A stretch of 32,647 nt of DNA from Raineya sp. (GTDB lineage: Bacteria; Bacteroidota; Bacteroidia; Cytophagales; Thermonemataceae): contig JANWZC010000004.1 of NCBI GenBank assembly GCA_025054975.1, positions 1-32,647 of the forward strand, written 5' to 3'. Below, piece after piece: positions 1,289 through 30,705 of the stretch. Under the pieces are notes generated by a model that saw nothing but the letters and a program-made list of their open reading frames with translations, did no database searches and was not told the origin of the DNA. A program made the position numbers and the translations under genes. Within the stretch, counting starts at the first letter, position 1. Each line of letters begins with the position of its first letter.

Positions 1289-2668
1289 TTAAAGTTGTTC
1301 TTGGAAGAAGGTTTGCAAATTTTCAATTTTTATACGTTTTTGTTCGCCTGTTTGCATATTTTTGACTGAAATTTCATTATTTTTCATCTCTTCTGAACCT
1401 GCAACCAGCACAAAAGGAATTTGTTTCTTGTCGGCATATTTGAATTGCTTATCTAACTTGGTGCTTTGTGGATAAATTTCAGCTTTGTAGCCTGCATCAC
1501 GCAATTTTTTGAGCAAAGGCAAAACAAATTTTTCACTTTCTTTATCAAAGTTTGTAAAAAGCATTTGTGTGGTACTTTGCGTTTGAGCGGGAAAGAGGTT
1601 TTGTTCTTCCAAAACATCATAAATTCTATCTAATCCAAAGGAAAATCCTACACCTGCCATTCCTTGCAAGCCAAAAGTGCCTGTGAGATTATCGTAACGT
1701 CCTCCTCCGCTGATACTTCCCACTGCCGAATTTTTCACTTTTACCTCAAAGATTGCTCCTGTGTAGTACGAAAGCCCCCGAGCCAAAGTAATATCTACTA
1801 CCACAGGAAACGAAGTTTGACTATCAAAAAGTTGCAAGTACTCAAAAATTTGTTTCAAGTCGGCAATTCCTTCTGAACCTACTGCTGAGTTTTGCAAAAA
1901 ATCCTCTAAAAATTGAATTTTGGCTTCATTATTGGCGGGAACATCAAAAATAGGCTGTAAGGCTTGTATATTGTTTTCGGAAAAACCTCTTTGCAATAAT
2001 TCCTGCTCTACTTTTTCCTTGCCTATTTTATCCAGTTTATCAATAGCCACACACAGTTCATTTTCCTTGCCTTCTGCACCGATTTTTTCTGCAATACCCG
2101 CCAATATCTTGCGATGATTGATTTTAATTTCAAAACCTTGTATGCCCAAACGCTTCCCTAAAACTTCATTCATCATCAAGATAATTTCAGCCTCGCAGAT
2201 GAGTGAATTTGTACCAACAACATCAGCATCGCATTGATAAAACTCGCGGTAACGCCCTTTTTGGGGGGCATCGCCTCGCCATACAGGTTGAATTTGATAC
2301 CTCTTGAAAGGAAATGCTAAATCGTGTTGATTCATTACCACGAAACGAGCAAAAGGTACGGTCAAGTCATAGCGTAAGCCTTTCTCGGCGATTTGTAAGG
2401 CAAAAAGTTTAGAGCCTTTTTTCAAATCCTCGGGCTGAACATTTTTCAAAAAATCTCCTTGATTAAGGATTTTATAAAGTAGTTGGTCTCCCTCTTCACC
2501 ATACTTTCCCATTAGCACCGAAAGATTTTCCATAGCGGGTGTTTCCAAAGGTAAAAAGCCAAATTTTTCAAAAACTTCTTTGATATGCGAAATAATATAG
2601 TTTCTACGCAACATCATAGCAGGGGTATAGTCACGCGTACCACGGGGTAGAGTAGGTTTCTGTTTCAT
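1289..2668 (-). CDS. hisS: histidine--tRNA ligase
   Basis: 459 aa; PRGTRDYTP, GLRYDLTVPFARFV, EFYQCDADVVG, ARGLSYYTGAIFEV, GGGRYDNL class II HisRS motifs. Confidence 0.96.
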   Translation of the reverse strand: MKQKPTLPRGTRDYTPAMMLRRNYIISHIKEVFEKFGFLPLETPAMENLSVLMGKYGEEGDQLLYKILNQGDFLKNVQPEDLKKGSKLFALQIAEKGLRYDLTVPFARFVVMNQHDLAFPFKRYQIQPVWRGDAPQKGRYREFYQCDADVVGTNSLICEAEIILMMNEVLGKRLGIQGFEIKINHRKILAGIAEKIGAEGKENELCVAIDKLDKIGKEKVEQELLQRGFSENNIQALQPIFDVPANNEAKIQFLEDFLQNSAVGSEGIADLKQIFEYLQLFDSQTSFPVVVDITLARGLSYYTGAIFEVKVKNSAVGSISGGGRYDNLTGTFGLQGMAGVGFSFGLDRIYDVLEEQNLFPAQTQSTTQMLFTNFDKESEKFVLPLLKKLRDAGYKAEIYPQSTKLDKQFKYADKKQIPFVLVAGSEEMKNNEISVKNMQTGEQKRIKIENLQTFFQEQL

Positions 2669-30254: not shown

Positions 30255-30443
30255 AATTAAAGAAAAAAATTACATCACCATCTCTCAAAGTTGTAACAAA
30301 TAGAACAATGTTTCTGTTCTTATTTGTGTAGATTTCAAGAGTATGGCAAAAACCAATAACAAATACCCACTTATTTTTAGACAAAACTTTTTTATTTCTT
30401 GCGTGGCAAATACAAGTTTCAAACCAATTCTTTTGAAAAAATT

Positions 30444-30474
30444 TTTGTAAATTCGTAAAATTTACATAACTTTG
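30444..30474 (+). promoter_or_regulatory. consensus Bacteroidota promoter with no ORF immediately downstream
   Basis: TTTG (30444-30447)-N19-TAACTTTG (30467-30474). Confidence 0.7.
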
Positions 30475-30478
30475 AAGC

Positions 30479-30546
30479 GGAAATAAAGTTTGAGATTTAA
30501 GCTCTACTGAAATGCCCGGAAGTTTCTTGCGGGCTTTTCGTTTTTT
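30479..30546 (+). ncRNA. candidate small RNA of about 65-70 nt
   Basis: Starts just after a consensus promoter and ends in an intrinsic terminator (GCCCG...CGGGC then TTTTCGTTTTTT); no plausible ORF. Confidence 0.5.
30514..30546 (+). terminator. intrinsic terminator of the candidate small RNA
   Basis: GCCCG-(g)AAG-TTT-CTT(g)-CGGGC followed by TTTTCGTTTTTT. Confidence 0.75.
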
Positions 30547-30705
30547 ATGGAAATAAAGAGGATTTCCCTTCTGAACTCTACTGAAATGCGATTTTCGCAA
30601 TAGATTAAGATACCTTTTTATTTGTATTACGCAGGATTTTTCAAAAGGTTTCACAAAAAGTAAAAAAAATTTTGTAACTTGGGCAAAAATATTCCTGCAA
30701 CGCTT

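Follow-up and report, generated by a model that had tools for sequence, protein, structure and literature searches.

A predicted small-RNA gene in Raineya and its old tandem duplicate facing an ECF-type promoter: a possible sRNA-antisense locus

In the genus Raineya, the intergenic region ahead of an M1 metallopeptidase gene, bounded on its other side by thiL (AIRS domains) in the window, very probably carries a small-RNA (sRNA) gene, as predicted from its conserved promoter, transcript region, and terminator (unit 1, or copy 1). Directly behind it lies an old tandem duplicate (copy 2), into which an ECF-type promoter is aimed from the opposite strand. The sRNA, both promoters, and the repeated words are conserved at the sequence level. 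From these features we propose, at roughly even odds, that an sRNA under a housekeeping promoter shares the locus with an antisense antagonist that is cis-encoded, driven by an ECF sigma factor, and descended from the duplicate.

The window, that is, the whole stretch of 32,647 nucleotides that was analysed, is a contig of a 2.73-Mb assembly (G000). When 59 genomes were searched at the nucleotide level, the element turned up in each of the three remaining members of the genus, namely, G001 (an "uncultured Cytophagales" MAG), G002 (Raineya orbicola SPSPC-11), and G003, which together with the window make up the comparison set of four species. R. orbicola has been described as an orange-pigmented hot-spring isolate with a growth optimum near 50°C (PMC5982127). 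The coordinates of all features are collected in Table 1.

Table 1. Features of the locus between thiL and the M1 peptidase gene, in window coordinates.
Feature	Position	Strand	Basis
sRNA promoter TTTG-N19-TAACTTTG	30444..30474	+	Pattern match; kept in four species
Predicted sRNA (copy 1), 68 nt	30479..30546	+	Conservation, covariance model
First stem-loop of the sRNA	30487..30503	+	Folding; an exact 21-base match in G004 includes the stem-loop
14-mer CTCTACTGAAATGC, copy 1	30502..30515	+	Sequence match, folding
Intrinsic terminator, stem 30508-30540 plus T-run	30508..30546	+	Folding; inner stem altered on both sides in G003
Copy 2, GGAAATAAAG (30549-30558) plus CTCTACTGAAATGC (30576-30589)	30549..30589		Minus-strand transcription proposed
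ECF-type promoter TGAAAC-N16-CGTA, aimed into copy 2	30653-30628	-	Exact pattern; orthologous site in all four species
Predicted antisense RNA	30479..30621	-	Inferred from promoter; start near 30621; drawn to end of copy 1

A predicted sRNA gene conserved in four species

The promoter named in the original prediction is borne out. It is predicted to be of the type read by the primary sigma factor of Bacteroidota, and its class (TTTG and TAACTTTG, spacer of 18 to 20) has 6 matches in the window where 1.34 would be expected; none of 100 shuffles reached 6. A TTTG-N19/20-TAnnTTTG promoter stands 35 to 36 bases ahead of the RNA in each of the four species; the G003 version reads TTTG-N20-TATATTTG, with the distance to the RNA unchanged. 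An intrinsic terminator had also been predicted behind the promoter, and folding supports it: the segment 30502-30546 has a free energy of -16.5 kcal/mol (z of -4.1), with no equally stable fold among 200 shuffles. A simple consensus terminator scanner did not list it. Within the fold, the copy-1 14-mer completes the first stem with its opening bases, is single-stranded in the middle, and runs at its end into the terminator stem.

Over its 68 bases, the sRNA shows no difference between the window, G001, and G002 (68/68 identical), compared to an identity to the window of about 80% in the adjacent thiL coding DNA and of 40 to 47% in the upstream intergenic DNA. The G003 sRNA is 87% identical, and the promoter, an exact 39-base core, and the terminator persist; the inner stem of the terminator has changed on both sides with its pairing retained. 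In this species the upstream neighbour differs, being a tatD-like gene on the opposite strand, and the flanks barely align. A covariance model gives copy 1 between 97 and 102 bits in all four species. Because the RNA is kept while its flanks diverge and the neighbour is replaced in G003, unit 1 appears to be an independent RNA gene, and the earlier proposal of an sRNA gene is strongly supported.

The region does not seem to encode a peptide. No ORF in unit 1, or elsewhere at the locus on either strand, is conserved in the four species, in agreement with the original description of unit 1 as free of ORFs. A peptide starting from the ATG that sits at the foot of the terminator stem (30512) was discarded, having frames of unrelated length across the four species; a minus-strand peptide was rejected for lack of conservation among them, and a 156-amino-acid minus-strand ORF across the region was judged spurious, having no counterpart in the relatives. 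Separately, a symmetric A+T-rich hairpin (ACAAATAGAACA...TGTTCTTATTTGT) lies just 3' of thiL in the window (30296-30330). It is possibly a thiL terminator or processing site, and it is not evident in the alignment of the relatives.

Could the whole element instead be a plus-strand leader of the M1 peptidase gene, with the sRNA promoter as its start and the terminator as an attenuator? In favour of such a leader, the peptidase gene is downstream in all four species, even in G003 with its other neighbour changed. However, the peptidase gene has a weak promoter-like box of its own (TAACTTGG and variants) some 20 to 30 bases before its start, in the relatives too, no alternative antiterminator is apparent in single-sequence folds, and the possible relative of the sRNA in G004, described below, is not beside a peptidase gene. 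We regard a peptidase leader as distinctly improbable and an independent sRNA gene as the better reading of unit 1.

Family and distribution of the sRNA

No Rfam family matches the sRNA above the gathering threshold, and nothing credible appears at relaxed thresholds either. Searched with the sRNA model, 292 genomes of the order gave clear matches only in the genus. Order-wide matches with E values of 1e-3 to 1e-2 look like generic terminators, with the exception of one in G004, a genome of the same family and another genus. There, L018 (1507-1567) has 21 exact bases of the first stem, ATAAAGTTTGAGATTTAAGCT, followed by a strong terminator; it is at an unrelated locus, with neither the 14-mer nor a peptidase gene alongside. 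This element is perhaps a distant relative of the sRNA, and by a rough estimate a 21-base match is unlikely to arise by chance among so few family genomes. In a family-wide search with lax filters, G006 gave no match and G007 only one with an E value of about 3, and the best matches in G005 were set aside as generic terminators.

Wider scans gave little. A pattern scan of 391 genomes with three mismatches allowed matched many genomes, and the reversed control matched a similar number; viral contigs had no match to the element. Three Cytophagales records were matched in a scan of GTDB genomes, in which matches in Nostoc and in an archaeon were judged to be due to chance because they lack the 14-mer and the terminator.

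An old tandem duplicate without forward signals

As originally described, both words of unit 1 are repeated exactly in the window, GGAAATAAAG at 30479 and 30549 and CTCTACTGAAATGC at 30502 and 30576. The genome-wide search for the 14-mer that had been recommended returned exactly two occurrences in the assembly, both at this locus, and none of its complement. The comparison with relatives, likewise called for, showed that unit 1 and the tandem second copy recur together in the three other species. The duplicate is old, given that every one of the four species has copy 2.

Copy 2 had been described as having no clear promoter, and this holds for the genus: neither a forward promoter nor a convincing terminator for it was found in any of the four species, and part of its first stem is gone. 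The hairpin TGCGA-TTT-TCGCA that had been assigned to copy 2 is indeed where it had been placed, but it has no U-tail and is not kept in the relatives. What copy 2 does retain, with few changes, are the words AAATAAAG and CTCTACTGAAATGC. Its 14-mer is 79 to 100% identical between species compared to only 23 to 49% for the bases ahead of it, and plain decay would not be expected to retain both words while the intervening bases turn over. The alignment of GGAAATAAAG in copy 2 of the window to the copy-2 word of the relatives is uncertain, making the 14-mer the safer half of the duplicate; this first word may be partly convergent in the window. The view of a "degenerate second copy" is thus right as to a diverged tandem duplicate, but the duplicate is old, retains no more than its two words, and is faced by a conserved ECF-type promoter on the opposite strand, which that view overlooked.

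A simpler account would be two plus-strand sRNAs in tandem, with unit 1 active, unit 2 decaying or reached by read-through, and the minus-strand promoter incidental or serving something else. Tandem duplication of sRNA genes is widespread in bacteria, the origin of copy 2 from copy 1 is plain, and in G003 the sRNA model still gives copy 2 a score of 60.7 bits. The missing forward signals and the partial loss of stem 1 speak against such a pair, as do the unequal conservation of the 14-mer and the bases ahead of it and, as described below, the absence of any word change that would keep a sense copy 2 pairing with a fixed target. We consider tandem plus-strand sRNAs unlikely. A proposed role as an antisense partner seems to fit copy 2 better than plain decay.

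An ECF-type promoter on the opposite strand

The words TGAAAC and CGTA at 30653-30628 have what we take to be the form of an ECF sigma promoter. The pattern TGAAAC-N16-CGTA has constant spacing in all four species, G003 included, and this is its single match in the window. The motif was traced from a second, weaker region match elsewhere in the genome (L009). In the form TGNAACYTT-N13-CGTA, it has 22 matches in the four genomes versus 7 for the reversed control; several of the 22 are inside coding DNA and are probably due to chance. Three sets of orthologous sites exist among the four genomes. In G000, G001, and G002, orthologous motifs lie ahead of a regulator with MerR and B12-binding domains and ahead of a small gene whose downstream neighbour is a photolyase gene. 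A CGT-box ECF motif, SM6, has been described in Flavobacterium psychrophilum (PMC9723704). At 30653-30628, the -35 and -10 elements and the distance between them resemble those of ECF sigma promoters, the TGAAAC/CGTA type included. The putative ECF regulon of Raineya takes in the MerR/B12-domain regulator and the gene upstream of photolyase, and from these genes behind the motif we infer that the ECF signal is light or (photo-)oxidative stress.

Two of these sites have features of their own. The second ECF-type promoter at L009 (own genome, C22; about 1430-1560, minus strand) is also found at L072 in G001 and L085 in G002, and a conserved leader of about 100 bases between this promoter and the MerR/B12 gene ends in an intrinsic terminator, making it a candidate ECF-driven sRNA or attenuated leader. 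At L069, L075, and L076, a conserved gene of about 142 amino acids lies directly behind the ECF-type promoter, upstream of the photolyase gene; the G001 copy of its product has no Pfam match.

Pairing between the sRNA and the predicted antisense RNA

What would a minus-strand RNA from this promoter contain? In the window, its first 75 bases would include the complement of both words. The predicted duplexes between the sRNA and the antisense of copy 2, calculated with the copy-2 part of the antisense alone, have energies of -39.1 (window), -45.3 (G002), -49.4 (G001), and -48.3 (G003) kcal/mol and are stronger in every species than the best among 300 shuffles. The opposite combination is weaker in all four (-35.9, -32.9, -32.1, and -44.9 kcal/mol in the same species order), the gap being due mostly to G-U pairs.

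The substitutions in the words of copy 2 point the same way. They comprise G to A in G002 and G003 (counted once), T to C in G002, and T to C, G to A, and one G to C in G001. Of these five independent changes, four keep the pairing if copy 2 acts as antisense and none if it acts as sense; under a simple AT-biased mutation model, at least four pairing-keeping changes out of five have a P of about 0.014. The test was devised after the changes had been seen and covers five changes in related species under a mutation model of our own choosing, so that the pattern is suggestive of the antisense reading of copy 2.

The roles might also be reversed, with the minus-strand RNA as the regulated partner (a gene leader or an RNA belonging to the ECF regulon) and the plus-strand sRNA as its repressor. 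The pairing sites are identical, and in G003 a minus-strand RNA would meet the tatD-like gene, which lies on its own strand, after no more than about 270 bases. In the other three species, however, thiL is convergent to the predicted minus RNA, which would leave this RNA without a gene to express, and no small ORF on that strand is conserved; role reversal therefore seems quite improbable. For the preferred reading, in which the minus RNA antagonizes the sRNA, the main weakness is that a minus RNA running through copy 1 is already a full antisense, which would make copy 2 redundant. In the folds, the stretch between the copies showed no clear terminator for the minus strand. Either the minus RNA would stop ahead of copy 1, or two sites would be better than one.

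As for mRNA targets, near-complements of the 14-mer (up to two mismatches) in the four genomes yielded no conserved untranslated target site. The sites common to species lie in coding DNA, and those examined are mostly in sense orientation.

Discussion

We propose the following mechanism. The primary sigma factor would start transcription of unit 1 at about 30479, and the transcript would finish at the terminator (30508-30546). Copy 2 would stem from an old tandem duplication; its promoter, its terminator, and part of its first stem would since have been lost, and an ECF sigma factor would read the copy from the opposite strand through the promoter at 30653-30628. The minus RNA would then be the complement of the two conserved words of the sRNA, or of the whole sRNA if it runs through copy 1. 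When the ECF regulon is on, the antisense RNA would pair with the sRNA, either blocking it or triggering its destruction, perhaps by RNase III, and collision of the converging polymerases would have an effect in the same direction. The conserved elements lead us to propose that both strands are transcribed, that the two RNAs pair in the cell, and that the antisense RNA acts on the sRNA. More tentatively, the bases retained in copy 2 may be just those able to pair with copy-1 RNA, and a regulon responding to stress or light would then silence a housekeeping sRNA through its own duplicate read in mirror image.

The closest parallel is CJnc190/CJnc180 of Campylobacter jejuni, where a cis-encoded antisense RNA antagonizes a trans-acting sRNA from one locus (PMC8687705). 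Both loci would combine an sRNA with an antisense antagonist, here as a prediction from sequence; the Campylobacter pair belongs to another phylum, no common descent is claimed, and the tandem-duplicate partner and the ECF-type promoter are features only of the Raineya locus. In Bacteroides thetaiotaomicron, GibS and other intergenic sRNAs are short and have a TAnnTTTG promoter and a Rho-independent terminator (PMC7366714). Compared by description, unit 1 shares the short intergenic RNA, the promoter type, and the Rho-independent terminator, and by these predicted features it is a new member of this broad Bacteroidota class. Rfp18 is a Bacteroidota sRNA conserved throughout the genus Flavobacterium, with proteases linked to it as targets (PMC9723704). 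The likeness, again by description, lies in genus-wide conservation, and the peptidase gene here is a neighbour, a matter of neighbourhood and not of targeting.

The locus adds to Cytophagales a predicted sRNA family that is absent from Rfam. If the proposed antisense role is true, the locus would illustrate a route by which an sRNA antagonist can evolve: the gene is duplicated, the duplicate loses its forward signals, and it gains a reverse promoter. R. orbicola is in culture, so both promoters and the pairing are directly testable in a member of the genus.
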